Shown one piece after another: positions 45,893 through 63,481 of a DNA stretch of 64,000 nucleotides. The DNA is from Actinomycetota bacterium (GTDB taxonomy: Bacteria > Actinomycetota > Acidimicrobiia > Spongiisociales > UBA4744): NCBI GenBank assembly GCA_013152275.1, contig JAADGS010000063.1, forward strand, positions 1-64,000, written 5' to 3'. The notes under the pieces were generated by a model that had not been told where the DNA came from, did not search any database, and saw only the letters and a program-made list of their open reading frames with translations. Positions within the stretch are counted from its first letter, which is position 1. Every line of letters begins with the position of its first letter. The translations under genes were made by a program, and so were the position numbers.

Positions 45893-46717
45893 TCATACCG
45901 CCGGCGCAGGCACAGGACGGCGGCCCGTCATCTTCAAGAAAGCGACGAGCACCGGGATCAGGTATGCCCAGTAGCCGCCGAGCGTCAGTAAAGACGGGTT
46001 GTACGAGATGCCGAAAAGTGCCTTGGCGAAGCTGCCGAACAGGCTCGTGGAAGGGTCGAGAAACCCGAGCGTCCACACGTGCTCGACGACCACCGGCAGA
46101 AAGCCGGCCTCCTGAAACTCGTGGATCCCCTTGCCGATCAGACCGGCGGCCACGACGACGATCAGAGTCCCCGTAATCCGGAAGAAGAGGCGCAGATCGA
46201 TCCGGCGGCCTCCTCGATACACGAGATATCCGATGCCGACCGCAACGATCAGACCGAACAACCCGCCGACGAATTGAACACCCTGAGCCTCGACTCCCAC
46301 CGCAACCGAAATCATGAACAGTGCCGATTCAAGCCCCTCTCGCAGCACCGCCACGAACGCAACCGCCGCGAGGCCAAGCATGCCGCCGGAGGCGAGAACG
46401 GACCCGGCTTCGTTCTCGAGGTGCGCCTTGAGTAGATGCGCCCTGCTCCCCATCCAGAAGATCATCCATGTCAGCAGTCCTACTGCGGCGAGTGCCACAG
46501 CCCCTTCCGCAATCTGTTCCGCACGACCTTCGAGCGATCCGATCGTCCGGAAGATCACTGCACCCGCGACCAGTGACACACCCGCTGCGGCAGCGGTCCC
46601 GGACCAAACCCAACGCACCCCCCGGTATTGCTTCGACCGCACGAGATAGGCAAGCAGGATCGCGACGATCAGGGCTGCTTCGACTCCTTCACGGAGCATC
46701 ACCAGGAATCCGGCCAT
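45893..46717 (-). CDS. FTR1/EfeU-family iron permease
   Basis: A 274-residue inner membrane permease with seven transmembrane helices. Two RExxE iron-binding motifs are visible, MLREGVEAALIV near residue 8 and VLREGLESALFM in the fourth helix. The E. coli EfeU family imports ferrous iron or ferric iron after oxidation; no EfeO or EfeB partner is adjacent here. The gene has its own promoter with a striking palindrome (46750-46778). C-type cytochrome, hydrogenase and Fe-S enzymes nearby would all raise the need for iron. Confidence 0.9.
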   Translation of the reverse strand: MAGFLVMLREGVEAALIVAILLAYLVRSKQYRGVRWVWSGTAAAAGVSLVAGAVIFRTIGSLEGRAEQIAEGAVALAAVGLLTWMIFWMGSRAHLLKAHLENEAGSVLASGGMLGLAAVAFVAVLREGLESALFMISVAVGVEAQGVQFVGGLFGLIVAVGIGYLVYRGGRRIDLRLFFRITGTLIVVVAAGLIGKGIHEFQEAGFLPVVVEHVWTLGFLDPSTSLFGSFAKALFGISYNPSLLTLGGYWAYLIPVLVAFLKMTGRRPVPAPAV

Positions 46718-46749
46718 AGGACGACGCCTCCATCGCTGAAAGCATCAGC

Positions 46750-46778
46750 CTATTAGCACTACGCGCGTAGTGCGAACC
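46750..46778 (-). promoter_or_regulatory. Iron permease promoter with perfect 18-bp palindrome in the spacer
   Basis: On the minus strand TAATAG (46750-46755) is a -10 box. The perfect palindrome GCACTACGCGCGTAGTGC (46756-46773) fills the spacer, and GGTTCG (46773-46778) is in the -35 position. A dimeric repressor bound there would block RNA polymerase. The sequence does not resemble the Fur or DtxR/IdeR boxes I know. Confidence 0.65.
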
Positions 46779-46850
46779 ATATGATCGCGCTCACGCCCTC
46801 ATCGGGTTCGAGGTCGCGGGAACACCCCACCGCCTCGCCGGCACTCGGCA

Positions 46851-46868
46851 CTTCCCCCTGAGGGGAAG
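46851..46868 (-). terminator. Stem-loop after the monoheme cytochrome gene
   Basis: CTTCCCC pairs with GGGGAAG around CTGA, 17 nt past the stop codon. A second, slightly shorter copy (47366-47379) lies in the duplicated block inside the neighbouring gene. Confidence 0.6.
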
Positions 46869-47630
46869 ACAAACCCTGGCGCTCTCAGCCGTTCTGGACG
46901 GATCGGATGTAGTCCAGGACCGCCCGGATCTCCTCATCGGAGAACGCCGGCATGGCCGTGCCCGCCACACCGTTCTCGATGGCTCCAAGTAGTTCTGCGT
47001 CGGGATCACCGGCCGCAGGCGAGTTCGCATCGAGAGCCTTACCGACACCACCCTCCAGATTCGCGCCATGACAGGCGGCACACTTCGCCGTGTAGATCGC
47101 CTTGCCATCGACGCCGCTCGAAGGCGCCGTCGTGGCGGTCGACCCGCCGCTCGAACACGCTGCTACCAGCAGCGCCAACACTGCAATGACAATGACCATG
47201 CGTCTCATGGATTCCTCCCCTTGGCAGGTCGAAACCTATCACGCAACACGGGTTTGTGGGGCCAACACCGCCTCAGGTCCTTGCTTCCTCCAACGCAGAT
47301 CGGGAGAAACCGAGTCGGATCGAAGACATCCCCATCACTTCGGCTCGTTCCTCGCCGAGCCCACATCCCCCTGAGGGGAAGACAAACCCTGGCGCTCTCA
47401 GCCGTTCTGGACGGATCGGATGTAGTCCAGGACCGCCCGGATCTCCTCATCGGAGAGCCGCTCCACGCCGGCATGGCCGTGCCCGCCACACCGTTCTCGA
47501 TCGTCCCGAGTAGTTCCTCGTCGGGATCACCGGCCGCAGGCGAGTTCGCATCGAGAGCCTTACCGACACCACCCTCCAGATTCGCGCCATGACAGGCAGC
47601 ACACTTCGCCGTGTAGATCGCCTTGCCATC
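46853..47630. repeat. Tandem duplication of about 260 bp in the cytochrome c genes
   Basis: The block 46853-47109 is repeated at 47366-47630 with very few differences apart from an 8-nt insertion (GGAGCGGC, minus strand) in the second block. Each copy carries a terminator hairpin, the 3' end of a cytochrome domain and the heme motif KCAACHGANLEGG. Spacing is 513 bp before the insertion and 521 after it. The near identity points to a recent event. Confidence 0.9.
46885..47208 (-). CDS. Monoheme cytochrome c lipoprotein
   Basis: A 107-residue small cytochrome. The lipoprotein signal ends in the lipobox LVAAC at about residue 18. The heme motif CAACH is near residue 43 and the axial Met lies in GTAMPAFSDEE. 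The C-terminal helix RAVLDYIRSVQNG is complete. The whole cytochrome domain is almost identical to the second domain of the preceding gene, so it looks like a duplicated domain that gained its own signal peptide. It is the last gene of the bc complex operon and its ATG overlaps the upstream stop. It should shuttle electrons on the outer face of the membrane. Confidence 0.88.
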   Translation of the reverse strand: MRRMVIVIAVLALLVAACSSGGSTATTAPSSGVDGKAIYTAKCAACHGANLEGGVGKALDANSPAAGDPDAELLGAIENGVAGTAMPAFSDEEIRAVLDYIRSVQNG

Positions 47631-48134
47631 CGGTCCGGCTGCTCCAACGGTGGTCGTGGTACCGCCTCCGGTGGCGGACGGTGCCGCCAGTGGCTCCCGC
47701 CAGTTCGGACGATCGGGTGCGCCCTTTTCCAGCGAGCGCAGGTAGGAGGACAAGGCATTGATCTGTTCGAGGGTGAACGGACCGTTGAAGTCCTGCAGGT
47801 AGGCACTCATCTGCGTCCCCGGAATACCGACCGAGACGAGCGAGCGAATCTGCTCGTCTGACACCGAGCCGAGAAACTGCTTCGAATTGAGTGCAGGACC
47901 GATCCCCCCGGTGGCGTTCTGGCCATGGCAGGCAGCGCAGTTCTGCACGAAGAGTTCATCACCGGTGGCAATCAGATTGGCGACATGCTGCGCTTTTGCC
48001 TCCGCGCGCCTGTTCGGTTCGACCAGCCTGTAGGCGACAAACGCCAGCACGAGGAGCACCAGCAGACCGACACCCCACAGCATCCACCTGTTCGTAGATT
48101 CATCCATCTTCGGATCTGGTGGTCGTTCAGGCAC
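47205..48134 (-). CDS. Membrane-anchored diheme cytochrome c of the bc complex, C terminus frameshifted
   Basis: A 309-residue frame. One N-terminal transmembrane anchor (WMLWGVGLLVLLVLAFVAY) is followed by two cytochrome domains with CAACH motifs (NCAACHGQNATGG and KCAACHGANLEGG) and their Met ligands. After GTAMPAW an 8-nt insertion relative to the duplicated copy changes the frame, so the expected ending SDEEIRAVLDYIRSV is replaced by about 80 unrelated residues. The ancestral stop would be at 47398. The start is GTG 48134, with GGGGGGACAG upstream and an 8-nt overlap with the Rieske gene. It may still bind both hemes; it could also be decaying, or contain an assembly error. Confidence 0.75.
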   Translation of the reverse strand: MPERPPDPKMDESTNRWMLWGVGLLVLLVLAFVAYRLVEPNRRAEAKAQHVANLIATGDELFVQNCAACHGQNATGGIGPALNSKQFLGSVSDEQIRSLVSVGIPGTQMSAYLQDFNGPFTLEQINALSSYLRSLEKGAPDRPNWREPLAAPSATGGGTTTTVGAAGPDGKAIYTAKCAACHGANLEGGVGKALDANSPAAGDPDEELLGTIENGVAGTAMPAWSGSPMRRSGRSWTTSDPSRTAESARVCLPLRGMWARRGTSRSDGDVFDPTRFLPICVGGSKDLRRCWPHKPVLRDRFRPAKGRNP

Positions 48135-48630
48135 TTTCTGTCCCCCCGCAGTTTGGGCCACGCAGCGGTTCATCGATCGTCTCGGGGCCGCGTGGAGGCC
48201 CGAGAGTCACCAAACCCGTGTCCACTTGAACGATGCCGTCGACGATCTCCACCGCGTAGCGATCCATGCCTCGGGGAGCAGGGCCCTCCCGCCACTCTCC
48301 AAGTCGGTTGAACTTCGAGCCATGGCATGGGCACTCGAACTCGCCAGACGAATCGCACCACGGCACCCGGCATCCCAGGTGTGGACATTTCCACGAGAGT
48401 GCCACGGTCTCGCCCTCGATTTCGGCCACATACCCACGAATGGCCGGCAACTCGGCGACATCCACGGTCGGGACGTCGGCGACGGGGCCTGCTTTCACCA
48501 TTCCCCCGAAACCGGAGGTCTCGCCCGGCTTGAACATGTCCCAGCTTGTCCAGGCACCGGCAACACCAACGAGACCGAAACCCCATTTCCAGCCTCTGGC
48601 CAGCAGCTCTCTTCGGTTGATCTTGCTCAT
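48127..48630 (-). CDS. Rieske [2Fe-2S] protein of a cytochrome bc complex
   Basis: A 167-residue Rieske subunit. The cluster ligands lie in CPHLGCRVPW and CPCHGSKF. The N terminus NRRELLARGWKW is twin-arginine-like and precedes one membrane helix, which suggests Tat insertion, as for many Rieske proteins. ATG 48630 overlaps the stop of the subunit IV gene. It takes one electron from quinol at the outer site and passes it to the cytochromes encoded downstream. Confidence 0.94.
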   Translation of the reverse strand: MSKINRRELLARGWKWGFGLVGVAGAWTSWDMFKPGETSGFGGMVKAGPVADVPTVDVAELPAIRGYVAEIEGETVALSWKCPHLGCRVPWCDSSGEFECPCHGSKFNRLGEWREGPAPRGMDRYAVEIVDGIVQVDTGLVTLGPPRGPETIDEPLRGPNCGGTESA

Positions 48631-62271: not shown

Positions 62272-63074
62272 CGCCCGCTCCTCAGTCGTTCCACATAACT
62301 CGTCCGTGATCTCCTGAATATCAACATCACCCCGAACAACACCACTGCACCGATCACACCCAGGACCAACAGCAGATCGACCCCGCCCGACGAAGGCTGT
62401 GTCGTCGCGAAGTATGCGGCGAGGTCGGCCCGCTCCGCGTCCGTGAAGGGGCTCGCCCCGAACACCGGTTGCATCGTCGGGGACGGCGGGTTGGCCAGGA
62501 CGGCGAAGACACCGTCGGTGCCTCCGAATCGAGCAGACAGGTCGGTGAGGTCCGGTCCCAGCGTGCTGCCACCGAGGTTGGTGTGGCTGCCTGCACTGTG
62601 ACATGCGATGCAGGCCGGTCCGCCTCCGTCCAGCCGCTGCACACCGACGAAGATCGCCTCGCCACGCTCGGCGGAGCCGGTCACGGCCGCCGCGGTCGGC
62701 ACGGTTACACCCGCGGTAGTAGTGGTCCCGGCCGGCGACCCTTGCAGATCACCCTGCACGTGACCGATCAGCGCGGCGATGTCTGCGTCGCTCAGTGAGG
62801 AGAACGGAGGCATGACGCCGTCGTATTGGACTCCGAGCACCTCGATCGGCCCCGAAAGCCCCCCGGTGATCACGGTGCGCACGAACTCGGCATCCTGAAC
62901 TGCCGGGTTGCCGGCGAGAGGGGGGAACGATCCTGCAACGCCTTCGCCGGTGGGACCGTGGCACGCCGCACAATTCGTCTGGTAGATGGTGGCGCCGTCG
63001 GGTTCGGCGGCCGAGGCCGCAGGCACGACGGCCATCGTCATGAACAGCGTCGCCGCGACGAGGTAGCGGATCAT
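62268..63074 (-). CDS. Diheme cytochrome c with C-terminal membrane anchor, in the nar operon
   Basis: A 268-residue exported cytochrome. The Sec signal ends near ASAAEP (residue 23). Domain one has [11 protein letters not shown] with Met ligand in GVMPPFSS. Domain two has [15 protein letters not shown] with Met ligand in [10 protein letters not shown], and a C-terminal helix ([20 protein letters not shown]) anchors it. It lies between the rrf2 and narG genes with 4-nt overlaps on both sides, so it is made in step with nitrate reductase. It could deliver electrons at the outer face or link to another reductase for a product of nitrate. Confidence 0.9.
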
Positions 63075-63481
63075 GGATGGACTCCTTCCTCGATGTCCGA
63101 GATCTTGGTGTTCGCGAGTTCGGCCAAGAGGGCGTCACGGGCCCGACTCCATGCATCGTGCAAGGCGCAATGCTCGGTCACCGGACAGGGGGTTCCTCTC
63201 AGCACGCAGCTGCCGTCGACGGTCGGGCCCTCGACCGCCTCGATGAGATTCAGCAACGAAATCTCCGACGTGTTCGTATCCAGCCGGTAGCCCCCTGTAG
63301 GGCCCGGCTCGGAGACCACCCAGCCCTTCACTACCAGCGGCTTCATCACCTGGGCGATGAATGGAGCCGTGGTCCCGATGATCCCGGCCAGGTCTGCGCC
63401 CTTGACGAGACCATCGGTGTGATCGAGCTCGAGTACTGCCTTCAATGCGAGATCGGCTTTCTTCGTGATCTCGAGCCGCAT
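63071..63481 (-). CDS. Rrf2-family regulator, possible NsrR/IscR-like Fe-S sensor
   Basis: A 136-residue winged-helix regulator. The DNA-binding domain (about 1-65) has the Rrf2 pattern ITKKADLALKAVLEL and PGPTGGYRLD. Three Cys in the dimer helix loop, Cys92, Cys99 and Cys105, are spaced nearly as the cluster ligands of NsrR (93, 99, 105) and IscR (92, 98, 104). A role in sensing nitric oxide or Fe-S status in the nitrate operon is likely but inferred. ATG 63481 overlaps the narK stop by one base, and its own stop overlaps the cytochrome start. Confidence 0.85.
   Translation of the reverse strand: MRLEITKKADLALKAVLELDHTDGLVKGADLAGIIGTTAPFIAQVMKPLVVKGWVVSEPGPTGGYRLDTNTSEISLLNLIEAVEGPTVDGSCVLRGTPCPVTEHCALHDAWSRARDALLAELANTKISDIEEGVHP

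Follow-up and report, generated by a model that had tools for sequence, protein, structure and literature searches.

What does a palindrome do in front of an iron permease gene? We analyzed a 64,000-nucleotide stretch of an Actinomycetota contig (JAADGS010000063.1, positions 1 to 64,000; the whole of it is referred to as the window), in which the gene for an FTR1-family permease is preceded by the palindrome GCACTACGCGCGTAGTGC. A preliminary description had placed this palindrome in the spacer of the permease promoter, between a -35-like and a -10 hexamer, and had proposed that an unassigned regulator of iron uptake binds there. Direct reading bears out the anatomy: the palindrome is perfect over 18 bp, it lies 39 to 56 nt upstream of the FTR1 ATG (46717, minus strand), and the minus strand reads GGTTCG, 17 nt, TAATAG (Table 1). 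The outermost palindrome base doubles as part of GGTTCG. The promoter hexamers at FTR1 are only putative, because GGTTCG is a poor -35 element and a sigma-70 consensus scan of 46600-47000 returned no promoters.

Table 1. Features of the FTR1 promoter region, in window coordinates
Feature	Position	Strand	Basis
Palindrome core of the operator, 18 bp perfect (CACTAC GCGC GTAGTG plus one flanking pair)	46756..46773		Direct reading; identical 16-mer at sister-species FTR1
Extended operator, 28 bp, 30.7 bits	46751..46778		Matrix of 79 sites, this site among the 79
TAATAG, -10-like hexamer sharing bases with the conserved WAAT operator flank	46750..46755	-	Direct reading; kept in sister species; not picked up by promoter scan
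GGTTCG, weak -35-like hexamer	46773..46778	-	Direct reading; kept in sister species but not conserved at FTR1 elsewhere
FTR1-family iron permease, 274 aa, downstream of the operator	45893..46717	-	Pfam FTR1 PF03239, E 1.4e-41

By itself, the palindrome is only mildly unusual; its significance comes from conservation and from the neighboring genes. Perfect palindromes of 18 bp or longer number three in the window; 60 first-order Markov copies of it average 0.47. The 16-mer CACTACGCGCGTAGTG has no second copy in the window at up to 3 mismatches. Separately, a cytochrome c coding segment occurs twice in 46858-47560, as nearly identical copies ∼0.5 kb apart, the second of which is part of a longer reading frame (47205-48173) for a two-domain cytochrome c.

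Conservation in orthologous promoters and further copies near iron genes had been proposed as checks, and both were found. The genome from which the window comes (G000; 3.07 Mb, 100 contigs) has only two exact matches to CACTAC-N4-GTAGTG, one before FTR1 and the other about 23 bp upstream of sufB, the Fe-S assembly scaffold gene (identified by TIGR01980, 708.9 bits). No site in this genome differs from the pattern by one mismatch and 26 differ by two; 14 of these 26 were scored against the matrix described below and 12 are unscored, and 13 (L006 to L018) score -0.4 bits or less. A third site (L002, 25.4 bits) lies about 26 bp upstream of sufC-sufS, with one departure from the degenerate core. 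G000 thus has three sites or more, and those identified all belong to genes of iron uptake or Fe-S assembly. At up to two mismatches, a reversed control pattern has 163 matches in this genome versus 28 for CACTAC-N4-GTAGTG. The one other genome of the genus in the analysis, a sister species, likewise has exactly two exact sites, before FTR1 and sufB; its FTR1 protein is 85% identical, and the 16-mer at its FTR1 gene is the same.

We extended the analysis to 138 genomes of an order of uncultured Acidimicrobiia. The strict pattern CACTAC-N4-GTAGTG matches 23 of them; many of the loci have sufB, FTR1, or a solute-binding protein gene downstream, and the flanks are AT-rich. Order-wide, the raw count of the strict pattern is not enriched over the reversed control, which many genomes also match. 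A degenerate pattern with an AT flank matches 58 of the 138 genomes (102 strand matches at 88 distinct places) and its reversed version none, a comparison that is not blind, the flank having been added after the first sites were seen. Clean separation from the control is obtained only with the degenerate pattern plus the AT flank. Three strict-pattern sites inside reading frames (L021, L024, and L025) are probably chance matches. In two genomes of family f8 (L032 and L033), a strict-pattern site is flanked by a membrane protein gene and a gene resembling sugar-nucleotide epimerases, and no iron gene is visible.

Among the 88 places, 85 adjoin iron or Fe-S genes (33 sufB by coordinates, 50 by homology, one FTR1 fragment, and one heme oxygenase). 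The site lies 30 to 82 bp upstream of sufB at the 33 sufB places. The remaining 55 include 25 places upstream of ferric-iron binding protein genes and nine upstream of FTR1 (one of them the fragment, at a contig end). Sulfurtransferase genes account for six places, five of them shared with SufE; five places fall between ErpA and Mrp/ApbC, and two lie upstream of sufD. The site is also found once each upstream of heme oxygenase, where the gene likely starts inside the called frame, and upstream of FbpC, FeoB, a siderophore-type binding protein, and imelysin; these last four assignments rest on Pfam names, the references coming from the same loci. One site is shared by a binding-protein gene and a ferritin gene. 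The binding protein belongs to the FbpA type, for ferric iron (best solved relative 7w3w, E 1.8e-60); NCBIfam ranks phosphonate-binding proteins first for it, below their cut-offs. Three places have no assignment, namely G095:C146 and two at the contig end of G130:C137; at the first of these (L140), the degenerate-pattern site has no recognizable iron or Fe-S gene alongside. The proposal of an unassigned regulator of iron uptake is supported and can be widened, with Fe-S assembly as the core target: the regulon is centered on Fe-S assembly (sufB, sufD, sufC-sufS, ErpA, Mrp, and SufE) as much as on iron uptake.

The suf genes of the order are split into units, and every unit examined can have a site of its own: sufB alone, sufD-ferredoxin-sufC (G013), sufC-sufS-sufU (G114), and sufC-sufS (G000). 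Among the sufB promoters of 30 genomes, 15 retain at least 9 of the 12 fixed bases of the site, and five more (L048, L049, L051, L061, and L054) have a variant with 8 of 12. The operator is not universal: sufB promoters sampled from families f4, f5, and f6 do not have it. Several SufB frames are ∼760 to 920 aa long with the match split in two (G111:C4, G126:C64, G113:C82, G112:C113, G091:C188, G085:C505, G064:C83, and others), a pattern that would be expected of an intein inside SufB. In several genera, a gene for a small protein of ∼150 aa starting MPVIVVGADT is divergent beside sufB (L062, L066, L072, L096-L098, and L367-L371), and some f8 genomes have an OmpR-type response regulator, named by eye, nearby.

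Orthologous FTR1 promoters were compared using the FTR1 protein of the window as the query; of 145 loci encoding a relative, 80 named loci were kept. The nearest relatives are in metagenome-assembled genomes labeled mostly Acidimicrobiia, Actinomycetes, or Actinomycetota. Promoters were scored with a matrix built from 79 sites, a set filtered for AT content in the flanks. With this matrix, the next best place in the window after the extended operator reaches only -4.5 bits. Sixteen of the 80 FTR1 promoters score 9.1 to 38.8 bits; the other 64 (L226, L227, other Actinomycetota, and Chloroflexi) score -5.9 bits or lower. The 16 loci with the site encode the FTR1 proteins that are most similar to the query among the 80 (55 to 66% identity). 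Four of them (L213, L214, L217, and L220) appear to be from genomes that fed the matrix, and 12 are independent.

The consensus of the 79-site matrix is AATTnnCACTAYnnnnRTAGTGnnAATT, and in G111 the sufB site is perfectly palindromic over all 28 bp. In an alignment of 20 sufB promoters, many have a TACAAT-like -10 element that ends 2 to 3 bp upstream of the core, so that transcription would start within the core. TAAT stands one base after the core at most binding-protein promoters and several FTR1 promoters. Since the operator spans 26 to 28 bp with its AT flanks, the TAATAG that had been read as a -10 element in the window may partly be conserved operator flank. A wider set of 81 sites also took in strict-pattern sites without the AT flank. 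At the variable pair, 80 sites have C-G (24), T-A (23), T-G (20), or C-A (13), and the two positions are nearly independent. Several binding-protein promoters (L038, L040, L123, L124, and L128-L130) have a second palindrome, about CGTTAGGTACCTAACG, immediately downstream of the operator; the genomes matching DtxR (PF02742) do not include several of those that have it (G119, G121-G123, G127, and G133).

With the conserved site, its promoter position, and its targets established, we conclude that the palindrome very probably serves, in this order, as the operator for a regulator dedicated to iron and Fe-S homeostasis. The regulator, presumably a homodimer, would bind AATTnnCACTAYnnnnRTAGTGnnAATT and thereby cover the transcription start at sufB or sit in the promoter spacer at FTR1 and the ferric-iron binding protein gene. 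The position of the operator suggests repression by occlusion of the core promoter. Most likely, the regulator would act as a repressor, keeping RNA polymerase out for as long as iron or Fe-S clusters suffice and releasing the DNA when either runs short, so that the scattered suf units and the iron uptake genes would be turned on together. The signal, judging from the targets, would be iron or Fe-S status.

An activator or a dual regulator could also use such a site, since activators and repressors are not fully separable by position: the portion of PMC8593673 that deals with IscR describes it as repressing hyaA and activating sufA from similar places. In the aligned promoters the site overlaps the presumed start or the spacer, as repressor sites typically do, and we regard activation or dual control as unlikely.

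Which protein reads the site? The reader is not DtxR or SufR in G000 and not BlaI across the order, and it is probably not an Rrf2 protein, the most weakly excluded of these four candidates. An Fe-S regulator of the Rrf2 family, similar to IscR, RirA, or RisR, would fit the kind of regulon, given that such proteins read suf and isc elsewhere and jointly control Fe-S assembly and iron supply from AT-flanked palindromes. Two genes of G000 encode Rrf2 proteins with several cysteines; one of the two lies in the window (63074-63481, minus strand). The type in the window occurs in site-bearing and site-less genomes alike, and in a comparison of Rrf2 proteins from 36 chosen genomes, by BLAST and by eye, none of the groups was seen to follow the site. 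Of the sites examined, none adjoins a gene for a close relative of the two G000 proteins. Among 18 chosen site-bearing drafts, a convincing Rrf2 gene is lacking from three (G121, which is 98% complete, G113, and G135); these absences are not decisive, as incompleteness by itself would be expected to hide about one gene in 18. The operators of IscR, RirA, and RisR also differ from the site here; the RisR site, as given in an excerpt of PMC9973013, is an AT-flanked GAC-N7-GTC palindrome. We regard an Rrf2 reader as improbable. The Rrf2 gene of the window lies beside a NarK-type transporter gene and a nitrate reductase-like gene, both named by eye.

BlaI operators have the form TACTAC-N4-GTAGTA, and both the half-site and the 16-bp length of the site here are almost those of BlaI operators (ACTAC-N4-GTAGT-like halves), the closest operator shape known to us. 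A repressor of the BlaI/MecI/CopY family was accordingly our first guess from the half-site, and the presence of exactly one BlaI gene in G000 fitted it. The consensus given for CopY in PMC7253601, RNYKACANNYGTMRNY, likewise has 16 bp. Most site-bearing genomes lack the family: only 27 of the 138 genomes have a BlaI match, 21 of them over the cut-off, and BlaI is absent from site-bearing G013, G016, G063, G111, G119, and G121-G123, several of which are nearly complete. The BlaI gene of G000 is paired with a second gene downstream and has its own upstream palindrome, CTACGcaaCGTAG, which is spaced differently, and the targets here, unlike those of BlaI/MecI/CopY, are iron and Fe-S genes. Gene absence refutes BlaI for the order, and a reader from this family is very unlikely.

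An iron repressor of the DtxR/IdeR family has comparably little likelihood. DtxR boxes serve iron genes too, and DtxR is the only regulator gene that adjoins sites among the matches listed; it does so at 4 of 54 places and also stands beside FTR1 in L214, L221, and L225. Against it, no DtxR gene (PF02742) was found in G000, G001, G002, or five f3 genomes, and G000, G001, G013, and G016 carry the site; DtxR as the reader in G000 is refuted, barring a DtxR too diverged for PF02742. At some promoters, moreover, a separate TTAGG...CCTAA box, which we take to be of the DtxR consensus type, stands side by side with the palindrome. The preliminary description had set the palindrome apart from known DtxR/IdeR sequences, in agreement with the absence of the gene from G000. 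Nor does the site matrix look like a Fur box. The AcnR operator of Corynebacterium, CAGNAC-N4-GTNCTG, has the same 6-4-6 palindromic layout, is tied to an Fe-S enzyme gene, and differs in sequence.

The palindrome could in principle act as RNA (an attenuator, terminator, or leader element), as CACUAC-N4-GUAGUG could fold into a six-pair stem with a four-base loop. This reading is rejected on the near independence of the variable pair and is highly improbable for other reasons as well: transcription of many sufB genes would begin within the palindrome, the AT flanks are conserved outside the stem, and no terminator was found at FTR1.

SufR, the known suf repressor of actinobacteria and cyanobacteria, shares the core targets and, if the site is written CACTA-N6-TAGTG, the six-base gap, yet it is an extremely unlikely reader and is refuted for G000, which has no TIGR02702 match (only 7 of the 138 genomes have one with E below 1e-20, none over the cut-off), and the site matrix is unlike CAAC-N6-GTTG, from which its half-site differs.

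As an operator of a dedicated regulator, the site would appear to work most like those of IscR, RirA, or SufR. The SufR systems of cyanobacteria and Streptomyces, as far as the relevant sections of PMC8593673 and PMC11995493 go, resemble the one here in controlling suf from a palindrome over the -10 or start region, with six bases between the strongest half-sites. They differ in the site, CAAC-N6-GTTG (also in Streptomyces avermitilis, according to an extract of PMC11995493) versus CACTAY-N4-RTAGTG, and SufR is described there as regulating its own suf locus; the regulon here, unlike that of SufR, includes iron uptake, heme oxygenase, and sulfur donors. An excerpt of PMC11475020 reports that the IscR and Fur regulons overlap in Caulobacter.

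A full-text literature search with several spellings of the motif found no paper. The whole order may, as we tentatively suggest, control Fe-S assembly together with iron supply by means of a regulator whose family is not known in this role and whose operator, a new one of 28 bp, links separate suf units; the case for this wider proposal is nearly balanced. These findings bear on the open question of how suf genes are regulated in bacteria without SufR. They provide a precise operator and a defined target set in dozens of genomes of a group mostly without SufR, and the 28-mer can serve directly as bait for the regulator, which makes the question of suf regulation directly testable.
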